8,157 nucleotides of DNA from contig QMWA01000071.1 of NCBI GenBank assembly GCA_003661385.1, forward strand, positions 1-8,157, read 5' to 3'. Within the stretch, counting starts at the first letter, position 1. Every line of letters starts with the position of its first letter. The position numbers and the translations under genes were made by a program. Shown in pieces: positions 1,326 to 7,666 of this stretch. This stretch comes from Thermoproteota archaeon. GTDB taxonomy: Archaea > Korarchaeota > Korarchaeia > B14-G2. Below the pieces are notes generated by a model. It had not been told where the DNA came from, made no database searches, and saw nothing but the letters and a program-made list of their open reading frames with translations.

Positions 1326-4300
1326 TCAGGGTGCTTTGAGCTTCATGAGCTCCCTGATGGCTGTGTAGAGGGTGTATATCAGCTTAGAGCTCTCTGCGGT
1401 GTAGGCTGAGGCCTTCTCCCTGAGGCGCCTGGTGTAGTGAGGCCACTTCTCCCACCCCCTCTCCTCTAGGATCTGGGATGCTCTAGTGAGCTCGCTCCAA
1501 ACCTCCTTCAGTGGCACTTCTCTGCTCCACCCTAGGGCGCTCAGGAGCTCTTCAAGTGGCGCAGCTGGCACACCTAGCACCGACTTAGCTAGGGAGGAGA
1601 GGTCAGCTACCTTCTCATCTCTCACCAGCCCCTCTATGACGTAGGCTGCTGACCTGAGCTCTAGGCCTTTTAAGCCTTCTAGTAGCTGGCTGGTGCTGTA
1701 GGCTACTATGGTGAAGCCCTGGTTGACCAGCCGCTCAAGCTTCTGCCCTGCTTCACCCCAGCCTGCTACCTCAAGCAGCTCCTTCACTATGAAGTCTACC
1801 AGAGCCTCTTCGCCGTCGTAGACTGCTAGGAAGCCTATCCTAGCTGCCCCGAACTCGAATGACAGCAGGTCCACTGCAGCTAGCCTGAGAGCTCTAGATG
1901 GCTTCGGTATAGCCAGCTCGCGTCCAGCCAGCTTGACCCTAATCCTCTGAGCTGCCAGCATGTAGTCCACTGCCCTCCTAGCATACCTCTTAGCTAGATC
2001 CCACCTAGCACCACTTGACACCAGCTGGTAGTGAGCTTGGTCATCAACCTGCTTCAGCAGCACCTCGACAATGGGGTTTGGCTCAAGCTCCTCAGCAAGC
2101 CTGCTGGCCTCAAGCCAGTCTAGGGACTCGAGGAGGCCTGCTGAGCTAGGCTCATGGACCCCCATGACCTTCCTGTCACCCACGTTATGCACCTCATACT
2201 TGAAGAGCTCAAGTGGGAGGTTGAGCTTCAGCCTCAAAGCTATCATGAGAAATGCTAGCCCAACTCTAAGCCACTCAAGGTCTTCACTTGGCTCAAGCTC
2301 GTAGACAGCTCCATAGGTGAAGTCCCTGTACGCTCCTGCAGTCAAGGCTGTCACTGGGATGCTCTTAGACTCCCTGATGAAGTACGTCCTGCCCTCAGCC
2401 TCGATTGCCCTGTACTCTGGGGCTAGAAGCCTCCAGTAAACCCTGTTAGGGACCTTAAGGTACCTGCCGAAGCCGCGAGCTGGAGGCTCAACCACGCATA
2501 TGACCTCTGAGAACAGCCTCCCACCATAGTAGTCTCCAAGGAAGTCTGGGCTCTCACCCCACTCAGCCTTAGCCTTCTCATACTCCTCAAGCGCCTGAGC
2601 GAATGCATCTACTTCCCTGAGCCTCCTATAGCTGAGCTTAGCCTCCTCCACCCCAGTGACAACCCTGCCCTTCCTCCTGTACCCGACTACTATAGCGTCC
2701 TCAGAGTAGTCTAAGCACCCCATCTGAAACCTCTCAACCATGTCACAGTACCCTATGTCCTCTAGGTAGGCTCCTGAGTCTAGCATGAGCCTCTTCAGCC
2801 CATATGGAGGCCCATACTCGTAGAAGCTCATGTTCCTCCAGGCTCTCCTCCCAGCTTCAGTGAGCTTACCTCCCTCAGCCAGCTTAAGCTCCTCGAGGAG
2901 CTCAAGCTCCTCTCTCGTGAGCATGCCACGCAGGTGCCTTGACATGAGCTTGTAGAGCCCCTCGAAGAGCGTGGAGTACTTGTTCCCTGGGTTGAGGACA
3001 GCAGCCTCAAGGCTTAAGCTAGTCCACTCCCTGAGAGCACCAGCTCCACGGGAGAGCAGCTCCCTATCCCATGGCGTGTAGGGGAGGATCACAGTCTCGG
3101 TGTAGGGGAGCTCAGGCCTCCTACCCTTACGCCCCTCACGCTGCCTGAACTCCCTGACAGACTCAGGGAGCCCAAGGTGCACAACCCTGATGACAAGCCC
3201 TATGTCAATCCCCTGAGCAAGCGTCCTAGGGCTCACCACAACCTTAACCCTCCCCTCTCTAGCAGCCTTCTCTATCTCAGCTCTCTCAGCCTTAGAGACA
3301 AGGTGGTGGTGTGCCTTGACCAAGCCAGCTAGCTCAGGCCACCTGCTCCTAACCCTCCTACAGACCTCCTCAGCTCCCCTGATGCTCCTGGTGAACACCA
3401 GGGTAACGCCCTCGTCCCTGGCATAGGATGCCACCACCTCGCTGTAGTCCACGGCAGGAGCAGGAAGCTCGCAGCCAGCTGCCTTCAAGGCAAGGTAAAC
3501 CCTGTAGGCGTTCTCCTTGAACCTCCCGTAGTCCTCTAAGGCCTCTCTTATGTCAGTGGGAGCCCTGCCTGCATGCTTTCTAGCTTCAAGCCAGAGAGCC
3601 TTGAGGTCCTTTCCCAGGACAACATATGTCCTGTTCTCGACGCTGAATGGCTTGCCCTCAACAACCCTGGTCTCTAAGCCGTTAATGTCGCTGAGTGCTC
3701 TAGCAGCCTCCCTTGGGTTCCCTAGGGTGGCTGTGAGCAAGGCGACCTGGAACTTCAAGCCCCAGAGCTTCATCAGCCTCAGCATGGAGAGCATGAGGGA
3801 GGCCTCCCTAGGCCCATAGAAGTCGAACTCGTCGACCACGATGAGCCCAGCCTTCTGGCAGAAGCCGTAGAGCAGCTTGCTGCCTCCTGAAGCCCACCTC
3901 TTCAGCTCAGCCATCAGGAAAGCAGGGTTGGTGGCTATGATGTCCATGGTAGCAAGGTAGCTGCCTAGGCCACGGCCATGCCTCCTCGCAAGCTCCCTCC
4001 TCCTAACAGAGTCCAGTGCCTCAACCCTAAGCCCGAGAGCCATGGAGTAGCTCCTAAGCCTCTCAACCTGGTCGTTAGCCAAGGCTAAGGTAGGGTAGAT
4101 GGCTAAAGCCCTAACCTTGTTCAGATAGCAGTAAAGGAACCAGGCTTCAGTCTTACCGCTGCCAGACCCAGAGACCAGAACCAGGTTCCCCCCGCTCTCA
4201 AGAGCCTCAAGAGCCTCAGCCTGATGCCTATATAGCTTAGCTCCAGCGATAGCCCTCCCCCGCTCACACCCAGCTAGCTTAGGAGCTAAGTCCAGGAACC

Positions 4301-4406
4301 TCACATCAGAGAGCTCAGGCCTACACCCAGGCGAGCTGAACGAGTAAAACTCGTAGCCAAGCCTCCTGAGCACTCTACTGGAGTCCAGGACCCTCAGAGA
4401 AGGCAC
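1326..4406 (-). CDS. Large superfamily 2 DExD-type helicase, YprA/Hrq1/Lhr-like, with long C-terminal region
   Basis: The protein has 1026 residues. The start is GTG, three codons after an in-frame TAG. A full SF2 motif set is visible: YRHQ (59-62), Walker A SGSGSGKTE (79-87), PTLALANDQ (105-113), TNP (159-161), DEFD (192-195), TAT (225-227), LVFTRS (336-341), SPRTLAQGIDIG (392-403) and QREGRKGR (422-429). The second RecA-like domain, with its 'HHHLVSKAERAEIEKAAREG' stretch, is like that of YprA (MrfA) and Hrq1, which are ATP-driven 3'-5' DNA helicases in repair. Here DEFD replaces the commoner DEAH/DEVH motif. Residues 690-765 vaguely recall the DUF1998 region of that group, without a clear four-Cys cluster. 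Residues 838-960 may be a degenerate nuclease-like fold. It is cytoplasmic and probably acts on DNA; the partner and pathway are unknown. It is encoded 67 bases after a secreted peptidase, which gives no clear functional clue. Confidence 0.85.
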   Translation of the reverse strand: MPSLRVLDSSRVLRRLGYEFYSFSSPGCRPELSDVRFLDLAPKLAGCERGRAIAGAKLYRHQAEALEALESGGNLVLVSGSGSGKTEAWFLYCYLNKVRALAIYPTLALANDQVERLRSYSMALGLRVEALDSVRRRELARRHGRGLGSYLATMDIIATNPAFLMAELKRWASGGSKLLYGFCQKAGLIVVDEFDFYGPREASLMLSMLRLMKLWGLKFQVALLTATLGNPREAARALSDINGLETRVVEGKPFSVENRTYVVLGKDLKALWLEARKHAGRAPTDIREALEDYGRFKENAYRVYLALKAAGCELPAPAVDYSEVVASYARDEGVTLVFTRSIRGAEEVCRRVRSRWPELAGLVKAHHHLVSKAERAEIEKAAREGRVKVVVSPRTLAQGIDIGLVIRVVHLGLPESVREFRQREGRKGRRPELPYTETVILPYTPWDRELLSRGAGALREWTSLSLEAAVLNPGNKYSTLFEGLYKLMSRHLRGMLTREELELLEELKLAEGGKLTEAGRRAWRNMSFYEYGPPYGLKRLMLDSGAYLEDIGYCDMVERFQMGCLDYSEDAIVVGYRRKGRVVTGVEEAKLSYRRLREVDAFAQALEEYEKAKAEWGESPDFLGDYYGGRLFSEVICVVEPPARGFGRYLKVPNRVYWRLLAPEYRAIEAEGRTYFIRESKSIPVTALTAGAYRDFTYGAVYELEPSEDLEWLRVGLAFLMIALRLKLNLPLELFKYEVHNVGDRKVMGVHEPSSAGLLESLDWLEASRLAEELEPNPIVEVLLKQVDDQAHYQLVSSGARWDLAKRYARRAVDYMLAAQRIRVKLAGRELAIPKPSRALRLAAVDLLSFEFGAARIGFLAVYDGEEALVDFIVKELLEVAGWGEAGQKLERLVNQGFTIVAYSTSQLLEGLKGLELRSAAYVIEGLVRDEKVADLSSLAKSVLGVPAAPLEELLSALGWSREVPLKEVWSELTRASQILEERGWEKWPHYTRRLREKASAYTAESSKLIYTLYTAIRELMKLKAP

Positions 4407-4473: not shown

Positions 4474-6681
4474 CTAACCGGCAGCTGAGCCGAGACAGCA
4501 GCAGTAGTTGTTCACGGTGTCCTCCTCTGGGTAAGCTGGCTCCAGGTATGCATGCACTATAAGCCTACACACTAAGCCTGGCTCAATTGACGTCACTATG
4601 CTCGCGCTGGATACGGCCTCTACACACTGCCCAGGCAGAAGCATACCCAGCGTCCTTGCTGGTAGCTGGATGACCCCCATGCCAGGGATGTCTACTTCAA
4701 ATGTGACTGTGACTGAAGCGTCAACAGCTCCTCCTGTATTACAGACTTCTGCATGTGCTTCAATGAGCCACTCGTTCTCTCTCACTGGCTGCACAAGCAG
4801 GGTGCACCAGGTGACGTTGATGTCAGGTAGGCTCTCATGGGCTACTATGCTGTAGCTGTCTACTCCAGGGTCATCTACGTCCCCGTTACTGTTTACATCA
4901 AGCCACTCCACTATAACCCACTTGAAGCTGAGCTCAGCAGGCATGGTGAAGCAACATATGCCGCTCTTGTTTGTGAGGTTGTTGAACCAGAGTGCAGCTG
5001 CAAAGGTCCCCCTCCAGCCCACCCCATACGTCTTAACTACAGTCCTGCCTTGAGAGTCGTTGAACACCTCTATGAGGAACAGGTCTCTGTGCTCGAGCTC
5101 ATTGAAGCCTACCTCAGCCCCCTCTATCCTGCCGAAGGTCCTGCTAGTGAACCAGACAAGGCTTCCATCAGACTCAGCGTAGACCTCATCCTCCTGGGTT
5201 ACAGTCTCATACCACCAGGTCGCTATGTTCACTACCCGCCCACCGAAGAGCACTAGCACGGAGCCTGGCTCAGCTAGGATCCCAGCCTCAAGGTCAAAGA
5301 ACTCAGGGCTGTTGTCATACACGGTGACATCGTATGGGGCTATGCCGCCGAAGTACCCTGCTGCAGTCCAGTCTGTAGCCTGAGCGTTTATGACTGGAAC
5401 CTCAGGCAGAGGCTTGCCTTGGACATTAGGTAGCACTGTGTAGCAGAGTGGGCTGCTGAGCATGTAGGGGAGCATCCTGATGCAAGGCTCCCTGATCACA
5501 CGCTCAACCCTCTGTACACCTGAAGCTATAGCTATTATCCCAACCCAGCTCTCTGCCTCTGGTGGGAGGTAGAAGCTCAGGACATTCTCTCCCTCGAATA
5601 TGGGTGTAGTCAGGGGGTCAAAGTACAGCTTGCCTACTCCATCCTCTCCAATCTCAACGTCACCTATGTAGTAGTCGTTCAGCCACACTGGTATGGTCTC
5701 GACACCATAGGCTTCAATGTACACGAAGGGATCGTGGCCGTACCTCACTGCACTAACAAAGTCCTCCTCAAGCTCAAAGTATGCGCCGTACATCCCACCC
5801 TCGAGGACGCTTGAGATGTTCTTCTTCACAGCAACTCCACCATGCCCTACAGCATAGAAGATGAACTGCTCTCCGCTGCTCATAGCCACCCTCAGCCACT
5901 GAAAGGCATGCTGCAGCATAAACTTGGTGCCTGGCCCTCTGACCATAGGCCTAGGGACAGGTGCCCCGTTAGGCTTAGTCTCACAGTCGTATAGCACATA
6001 GGTGTCTGCATGAGCTAGCCTATAGGTGTCCGTGAACAGGTTGTATATGGCTAGCACGTTATTCCAGTCCGACCAGCAGCCTGGGTGCGTCTTCTCTAAG
6101 GTGTATCCTGCGAATATTATGAGCTTCTTGGTGGTCTCAGGCTCCTTCAAGGTGAGCTTGCCTGCATTAGCCCCCTTGCAGTGGAACTTCGGGTCATCTG
6201 CCGGTGAAACCCCCTTTACCATGGCTCTAGCCCTGTCGAAGGCGTCCTTCAGTGTGGATCCAGGGTTATTTCGGAGCACCTGATACAGGAATGAGGTGAA
6301 GTCTCCATTGTTGTCCTCCATCTCCCTCCTGCTGTCGTCTGTTGTTGAGCAACGCTTATGTGGGGCTGATGCCATGAGGACTAGTGGCCCGCTTAGCGCG
6401 TTGTCAAGTGAGTTCCAGAAGCACTCTGAGAAGCAGCACTGGAATATGAAGACTGCACTGTGGTAGCCTGCTCCACCCTGTGCTGGCTCCAGTGCTTGAG
6501 CAGCCCACTGAGCTATCTCGTGAGCCCAGATCACATCTCCGTGCTTGTCAGGGAGGTAAGCCTGCTGCTCCTGCCCTGGAGAGAGCCGAGCTTTTGCATC
6601 CAAGGAGGCAGCTGCCACGAGAATCCAAGACAAGGCGACAGCAACACAGGCTAAGGGGAGCACTTTCTCCTTGAGGTACAA
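4474..6681 (-). CDS. Secreted caspase-like cysteine peptidase with permuted halves, calcium-loop motif and CARDB-like C-terminus
   Basis: The protein has 735 residues. The start is TTG; an in-frame TGA four codons upstream rules out a longer start there. Residues 1-31 form a signal peptide (Lys4, Lys6, hydrophobic 7-25). Residues 50-156 match the second half of a caspase/legumain-like domain: helix, strand 'AVFIFQCCFSECF' with likely nucleophile Cys83, then 'LVLMASAP', an acidic stretch, 'GDFTSFLYQVL' and 'TLKDAFDRARAMV'. Residues 184-282 match the first half: 'KKLIIFAGYT', 'ADTYVLYDCETKPNG', a helix, then 'QFIFYAVGHGG' with likely catalytic His280. Residues 310-395 look like a beta sandwich. 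A DxNxNGxxDD loop (595-604) resembles an EF-hand or dockerin calcium site. Residues 630-729 resemble CARDB (Asn-Thr-Gly; ending EEDTVNN). No C-terminal anchor is seen, so it is probably released or bound by interaction. Five N-x-S/T sequons and about 19 cysteines fit export. Peptidase activity is inferred. Confidence 0.75.
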   Translation of the reverse strand: MYLKEKVLPLACVAVALSWILVAAASLDAKARLSPGQEQQAYLPDKHGDVIWAHEIAQWAAQALEPAQGGAGYHSAVFIFQCCFSECFWNSLDNALSGPLVLMASAPHKRCSTTDDSRREMEDNNGDFTSFLYQVLRNNPGSTLKDAFDRARAMVKGVSPADDPKFHCKGANAGKLTLKEPETTKKLIIFAGYTLEKTHPGCWSDWNNVLAIYNLFTDTYRLAHADTYVLYDCETKPNGAPVPRPMVRGPGTKFMLQHAFQWLRVAMSSGEQFIFYAVGHGGVAVKKNISSVLEGGMYGAYFELEEDFVSAVRYGHDPFVYIEAYGVETIPVWLNDYYIGDVEIGEDGVGKLYFDPLTTPIFEGENVLSFYLPPEAESWVGIIAIASGVQRVERVIREPCIRMLPYMLSSPLCYTVLPNVQGKPLPEVPVINAQATDWTAAGYFGGIAPYDVTVYDNSPEFFDLEAGILAEPGSVLVLFGGRVVNIATWWYETVTQEDEVYAESDGSLVWFTSRTFGRIEGAEVGFNELEHRDLFLIEVFNDSQGRTVVKTYGVGWRGTFAAALWFNNLTNKSGICCFTMPAELSFKWVIVEWLDVNSNGDVDDPGVDSYSIVAHESLPDINVTWCTLLVQPVRENEWLIEAHAEVCNTGGAVDASVTVTFEVDIPGMGVIQLPARTLGMLLPGQCVEAVSSASIVTSIEPGLVCRLIVHAYLEPAYPEEDTVNNYCCCLGSAAG
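4870..4899 (-). other. Calcium-loop-like motif within the secreted peptidase
   Basis: Residues 595-604 read D-V-N-S-N-G-D-V-D-D, with Asp/Asn at the spacing of an EF-hand or dockerin calcium loop. It sits between the beta-rich middle and the CARDB-like end. It could stabilise the domain junction or mediate docking. Confidence 0.45.
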
Positions 6682-6892: not shown

Positions 6893-7666
6893 TCAACCAG
6901 AACGAGAATGCCTTGTGGAGCTGGGAAGCTTCCTCGCAGCCTCAGGGTGAGCTGCCCTCTTCCTCAGCTCCATCAGCACGGGGATCTCATCAAGGTACCT
7001 CTCATCCAGCAGCTCCCACATCACTCCCTTTGGCCTCCTCACCTCCCCCCTGGCTTCTATAAGCCTGATTGGGGTTGCTATCAAGTCTACTGTGATGTCA
7101 TGGGGCTCAGCTGGGATGTGCTCCACAACCTGAAGGTCATGGACCGTGGTAGCTACAGGGGTCTCCTCGCTTACAGCCCCAACCTCCCTGAGGATGGCGT
7201 ACTCCAGCTCACTATACCCATGCCCCTTCCCAAGCCTATCACCCCTCTCCGTAACTGCCACGGAGCCTGTGACCTTCACGTCAACCTGAGGCAGCTCATC
7301 AAGCTGGATAAGCCTACCCACCTTAAATGCCCCCCTTATGGTTGATGCCAGCCTATACCTACCAGCTGCCATGCCTGGTGTGAGGAGGATGAAGCCCCTG
7401 GCCAGCCTGGGTGTAGCCATGACAAGCGTCTTCCCCCTCCTCAGGAGGAGCTCTCTGAGGGGCCTCTGAGGTGAGTCTGGGTTGCAGAACACAACTCTAG
7501 CTTTAATGAGCTCCCCTTGGCCAGCAAGCCTCCGTGCAGCCGCTGCAGCCCCCTTGAAGTTCGGTATCCTCCCAGCTATAGGCTTAGGTGGGAGAGCTAC
7601 ACCACTCGCCTCAAGAGCCCTATAGACCCTCATCCTGACCTCATGCTTCTCCCTCTTCACATCCAT
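6893..7666 (-). CDS. 5-formyltetrahydrofolate cyclo-ligase family protein (archaeal/MTHFSD-like)
   Basis: This 257-residue protein matches the cyclo-ligase family (COG0212) through most of its length. Seen directly: a basic N-terminus; 'GRIPNFKGA' at 32-40; a [10 protein letters not shown] segment at 62-71 followed by '[11 protein letters not shown]'; the nucleotide-loop type motif RLGKGHGY at 144-151; and [10 protein letters not shown] (173-182) with a later HD-x-x-VD. The canonical enzyme converts 5-formyltetrahydrofolate to 5,10-methenyltetrahydrofolate with ATP in the cytoplasm. Archaeal members of this branch also resemble the uncharacterised human MTHFSD, and many archaea use modified pterins, so the true substrate is uncertain. 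The ATG start is supported by AGGTG five bases upstream. The last 20 or so residues (Ser/Arg-rich) look like a disordered tail. It probably forms an operon with the RAD55-like gene. A 7-bp hairpin lies just past the stop. Confidence 0.87.

Follow-up and report, generated by a model that had tools for sequence, protein, structure and literature searches.

A C13-like peptidase of the caspase clan, very probably secreted and circularly permuted by nature, with relatives in archaea and bacteria

Introduction

Clan CD of cysteine peptidases is defined partly by the order of its catalytic residues, His then Cys. Activation cleavage of caspases falls between strands beta4 and beta5 (PMC4357240). An engineered, single-chain circularly permuted caspase-2 (cpCasp2) has been reported to show constitutive activity (PMC7760212), and the closest natural precedent for a rearrangement inside a caspase-like enzyme is the p10/p20 swap of algal type III metacaspases, in which p10 stands in front and both dyad residues lie in p20 according to the p20/p10 definitions (PMC5756287, PMC4357240). 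A published survey of caspase homologues in prokaryotes lists Thermococcus onnurineus and Pyrococcus yayanosii, with no permutation mentioned in the accessible part of its text. In the literature searched, which took in few subscription papers, we found neither a natural permuted legumain (family C13) nor a description of a clan CD permutation broken between the two catalytic residues.

Here, we describe a gene in an 8,157-nucleotide stretch of archaeal DNA (the window; contig C71 of a 1.74 Mb assembly in 206 contigs) which very probably encodes a secreted, C13-like cysteine peptidase of the caspase clan, circularly permuted by nature and folding as a single chain with the usual dyad. The family to which it belongs resembles legumain (C13, PF01650) in its sequence profile, in the strands and helices predicted, and in DHG and QCxxG-type motifs, with an RHxN-like helix 1 in many members (the Arg-His of this helix is not kept in every one). 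Unlike legumain, its halves are reversed, its members are prokaryotic secreted multidomain proteins, and the window member falls below the Pfam cut-off.

Layout of the Window Gene

Translation of positions 4477-6681 (minus strand) gave the protein described in an earlier sequence-only reading of the window, whose motif and residue coordinates all proved correct: QCCFSECF at residue 81, MASAP at 103, TLKDAF at 143, IIFAGYT at 188, and GHGG at 279. A hydrophobic N-terminus is followed by HGDVIWAHEIAQW...AVFIFQCCFSECF, which carries Cys83, and then by MASAP and TLKDAF; the His half comes next, with IIFAGY, TYVLYD, and FIFYAVGHGG (including His280), ahead of beta-rich domains (Table 1). Cys83 thus stands ahead of His280, the same order seen in all homologues listed. 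In the join between the halves, DDPKF aligns with the HPQY motif.

Table 1. Features of the window gene, with positions in the window and residues of the protein.
Feature	Residues	Position	Strand	Basis or content
Whole gene		4474..6681	-	735 aa, TTG start; probable secreted permuted C13-like peptidase
Putative signal peptide	~1-25	6607..6681	-	Hydrophobic N-terminus; boundary by eye
Cys half	45-160	6202..6549	-	Permuted-family alignment, HMM match to C-terminal part of model, predicted secondary structure; helix before beta4, beta4 with Cys83, beta5, following helices
Putative catalytic Cys83 codon	83	6433..6435	-	Invariant column C52, alignment A2
Join	161-185	6127..6201	-	Ordinary C-terminal end of the domain leading to ordinary N-terminal strand
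His half	186-285	5827..6126	-	Permuted-family alignment, predicted secondary structure, HMM; beta1 IIFAGY, helix, beta2 TYVLYD, helix, beta3 FIFYAVGHGG
Putative catalytic His280 codon	280	5842..5844	-	Invariant H266-G267, alignment A2
Beta-sandwich domain after peptidase core	300-395	5497..5784	-	Alignment, low-confidence predicted strands
C-terminal domain	402-621	4819..5478	-	Also present in further secreted proteins encoded by this genome

The beta-sandwich domain includes a stretch alignable in Thermococcus, Archaeoglobus, and bacterial homologues, and gave carbohydrate-binding-module-like structural matches (Z about 6). The C-terminal domain also lies behind a canonical clostripain of the same genome (L002:124-2130; Pfam C11, 196 bits) and occurs in two more of its ORFs (L003 and L004), and is perhaps a surface-attachment domain of secreted proteins. 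The genes adjoining the peptidase, a 1026-aa ORF (1326-4406) whose motifs look, by eye, like those of DEAD/H-box helicases and a 257-aa ORF that by eye resembles 5-formyltetrahydrofolate cyclo-ligase (6893-7666), are without an obvious functional link to it.

Distribution of the Permuted Order

The same order was identified in 22 further proteins from 21 other genomes, several of them single-contig, and is found in Thermococcaceae, Archaeoglobales, a Dadabacteria bin, and Planctomycetes. A profile search of contigs with the window protein alone returned no loci; with the family alignment it returned nine, the named ones lying in Thermococcus, Thermococcaceae, Archaeoglobus/Archaeoglobales, the Dadabacteria bin (on a contig with bacterial genes by inspection, namely SRP Ffh, MetG, and an outer-membrane-type protein), and a Phycisphaeraceae bin. 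Planctomycetes contributed more permuted proteins, as did three genomes belonging to the same phylum as the Archaeoglobus locus. No permuted copy was present in 28 other genomes of the window's own phylum or in the viral contigs searched, and plasmids gave no match to a homologue by tblastn.

Whole-genome searching also led to a distant archaeal genome (G095, single contig) with the Cys half and the His half in overlapping frames. The break in this homologue (L007:1195-1289) falls at a run of seven A, where a relative (L011) has six, and may reflect an error, a pseudogene, or slippage. Thirteen other genomes of its family each carry one intact frame of 732-790 aa with Cys before His.

A reversed order could in principle be an artefact of one metagenome bin (through contig chimerism, a frameshift, or breakage of an ordinary domain), and the window is indeed a short contig of a 206-contig assembly, while the G095 homologue is broken by a one-base difference. 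Against this, the same order stands in intact single ORFs of 13 further genomes of the Thermococcaceae family, of five more archaeal genomes, and of three from bacteria, and the permuted proteins contain no leftover second halves. Given that the order is conserved in single-contig genomes, we consider the artefact refuted, with a negligible chance of being correct.

The same searches returned canonical-order archaeal and bacterial proteins with the same motifs, among them L034, L043, L046, L060, L070, and L071, the closest sequence relatives found; L034, L043, L046, and L060 pass Pfam Peptidase_C13. These C13-like cousins have an end motif in common with the permuted forms (ETPQY, EHPQ) and differ from them by having His before Cys. 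The motif closes the ordinary domain, and in the permuted forms it sits shortly ahead of the first strand, HAILFAG, thereby marking the join.

Profile Evidence for Reversed Halves

We built a profile HMM from 13 canonical-order relatives and ran it on the full-length permuted proteins. The canonical cousins are a selected set because they were found via the permuted profile, although the result on order is independent of that. The window protein was matched with E = 4.1e-10 in two pieces of swapped order, residues 59-139 corresponding to model positions 115-186 and residues 188-285 to positions 12-102; the Cys piece by itself scored weakly (5 bits). Each of the 22 permuted proteins tested covered the domain once and in swapped order, with the Cys piece (model about 100-251) ahead of the His piece (model about 7-107). 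The two pieces abut in L029, the cleanest homologue, where residues 177-341 match model positions 102-251 and residues 341-441 match 7-107. Opening the HMM threshold gave no sign that either half occurs a second time in the permuted proteins, and each element is present in one copy; in one protein, the Cys piece was broken in two.

Rotating the domains in silico produced one continuous match scoring above the best native piece in 22/22 proteins, with shuffles scoring below zero. For the window domain, the single match reached 39.6 bits vs 23.9 for the best native piece (shuffle below zero), and for L029 the best single match rose from 74.3 to 114.4 bits. In a scan of 10 permuted proteins rotated in steps of four residues, the optimal new start fell at, spanned, or preceded beta1 by no more than seven residues in all 10; the plateau was narrow in three of them (L018, L020, and L029) and broad in the other seven (the window protein, L010, L032, L033, L041, L058, and L059). 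Canonical controls, scored leave-one-out, peaked at their native order. A profile of the rotated rows searched against the PDB matched legumains across the junction (best E = 7.2e-6).

Family and Clan Assignment

The window protein alone matches no Pfam family up to E = 10, so its family membership rests on its relatives. Its rotated domain scored 12.5 bits with Peptidase C13 (PF01650), below the gathering score of 22.8, which homologues in their native order exceeded (32.0, 28.3, 25.7, 30.5, and 33.4 bits); the permuted members of Thermococcaceae and Archaeoglobales pass this model, and the window protein is too divergent to do so. Rotation raised the C13 score of L018 from 32.0 to 39.0 bits and that of L029 from 33.4 to 43.7 bits, with matches crossing the junction. 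Scores with Peptidase C14 (PF00656) stayed below its cut-off of 21.4 for the rotated window (14.2 bits) and rotated L007 (16.5 bits) domains, and a C14 search of the window's own genome found nothing. NCBIfam returned only a sub-threshold match of the window protein to caspase_w_EACC1 (14.5 bits vs a cut-off of 140). In a phmmer search of the rotated L007 domain against the PDB, BurrH repeat proteins came first, which we took as spurious because they matched as many scattered fragments only; legumain-type ligases followed.

With respect to the MEROPS definition of clan CD, the H-G and C columns of the dyad are invariant in alignments A2 and A3, and the caspase/haemoglobinase fold is seen on predicted models only. 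The invariance of Cys and His-Gly across the aligned permuted family argues for catalysis, and the enzyme is probably proteolytic. The window protein does have SECF after its Cys where relatives have GGGM or SGG, and its residues in the beta5 region depart from the family as well, as might be expected of a permuted but inactive pseudo-peptidase retained as a binding module; in view of the invariant dyad columns, we regard such a module as unlikely.

Predicted Structure

The window core and L032 were modelled with AlphaFold at middling overall confidence (mean pLDDT of 61.9 and 67.3, respectively), the core lying mostly at 70-90. Foldseek returned nothing below E = 0.001 for either model in native order. 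With VIA-align, the best solved match of both was the engineered cpCasp2 (8vp4, 9c2y; PMC7760212), which has the permuted caspase fold in common with them: the window core aligned over 158 residues (model 72-263; Z 10.2, rmsd 3.8; next best Z 6.0), and L032 over 151-153 residues (model 68-272; rmsd 3.7-3.8) at Z 8.6, a value that barely exceeds the range VIA-align calls common and is followed by a beta-domain match at Z 8.2. The L032 model also matched GH156 and GH86 enzymes, but through its C-terminal beta domain, and we set these matches aside. The halves of the window model matched different parts of native chains. For the Cys half (19-160), these were later segments in the c-FLIP/caspase-8 complex, caspase-11, and metacaspases; for the His half (about 150-263), they were early segments of caspase-3, -6, and -8 and of Yca1. 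The matched ranges break at what we take to be the catalytic His of those chains. The predicted fold is consistent with a permuted caspase.

The resemblance to cpCasp2 extends to the fold and not to the position of the break, as cpCasp2 is man-made, was opened at the boundary of its large and small subunits (beta4/beta5), and still has His before Cys. The rival arrangement is an obligate domain-swapped dimer, in which each Cys half would pair with the His half of its partner molecule; packing within and between chains is indistinguishable at the level of sequence. Yet in both models the best match places segments from each half on a single permuted caspase chain, and in L029 the join brings the two HMM pieces directly together, so that we hold such a dimer to be quite improbable.

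Taken together, the profiles, the rotation, the structure matches, and the conservation in two domains of life bear out the sequence-only reading in its central claim that the halves of one caspase-like domain are reversed. Its proposal that rejoining them would rebuild an ordinary domain agrees with the gain in score on rotation. None of the contrary outcomes that it had named was seen, and both halves match the same clan. The order recurs in archaeal genomes, as it had suggested checking (Thermococcaceae and Archaeoglobales), and in bacteria too. A different complete domain that is merely broken here does not fit this recurrence or the lack of a second complete or partial copy.

Origin

We built a tree of 38 domains, rotated and canonical; in it, the 23 permuted proteins (from 22 genomes) all fell on one side of a branch with support of 93/89, just under the threshold used, and the window protein formed the longest branch. 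The grouping is consistent with one ancient permutation event. An origin by duplication followed by trimming of the outer halves, as first suggested from the sequence, is plausible; no tandem or fused H-C-H-C intermediate was found among the homologues. Two canonical C13-like genes (L043 and L051) lie close together on the same strand of one contig (G330, C3), and a tandem pair of this type could be a starting point for duplication and trimming.

Working Model and Implications

In the proposed arrangement, the ordinary C-terminal end of the domain would be linked straight to its own N-terminal strand, with the new chain ends opening after beta3, which bears the catalytic His, and ahead of the helix that leads into beta4, which bears the catalytic Cys. 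With the break placed between beta3 and beta4, the order of the dyad itself is inverted, and the break separates the His strand from the Cys strand, unlike the swap in type III metacaspases, which, like cpCasp2, are rearranged at the beta4/beta5 boundary. The earlier expectation that the usual cleavage point between subunits would become the chain ends or a new linker did not hold, because beta4 and beta5 remain contiguous here. After export, both halves of one chain would fold together into a single sheet, in which His280 and Cys83 may come together as the usual dyad. By analogy with the activity of cpCasp2 (PMC7760212), the enzyme should act as a single chain, as engineered circularly permuted caspases do.

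The peptidase is likely secreted or attached to the cell surface, given the N-terminal hydrophobic segment of the window protein and its homologues, the PEP-CTERM-like anchors of planctomycete members (by eye), and the domain that the window protein shares with a clostripain; its role would then be extracellular. Two planctomycete proteins (L033:4926-6362 and L059:631-2262) end in PEP-CTERM-like tails by eye, which suggests anchoring at the cell surface, and L059 also appears by eye to have a dockerin-like repeat. The permutation itself may be functional. It places the new N-terminus next to the active site, where the His loop and the helix leading to the Cys strand are parted, and the enzyme may be kept shut until export or trimming by its signal peptide or, in the Thermococcus forms, by their N-terminal beta domain. 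We offer this as a speculative and rather doubtful suggestion; if true, it would be a new mode of control for a caspase-clan peptidase.

The permuted family breaks the rule of dyad order in clan CD while apparently keeping the fold. Its permutation would be widespread in nature and probably ancient, and would give the protease clan a natural counterpart of the engineered permuted caspases. Because searches by profile or Foldseek overlook such members, wholly or in part, when the native order is used, counts of prokaryotic legumains and caspases are likely incomplete. The Thermococcus members would provide heat-stable proteins suited to the study of single-chain activity and of control without subunit cleavage.
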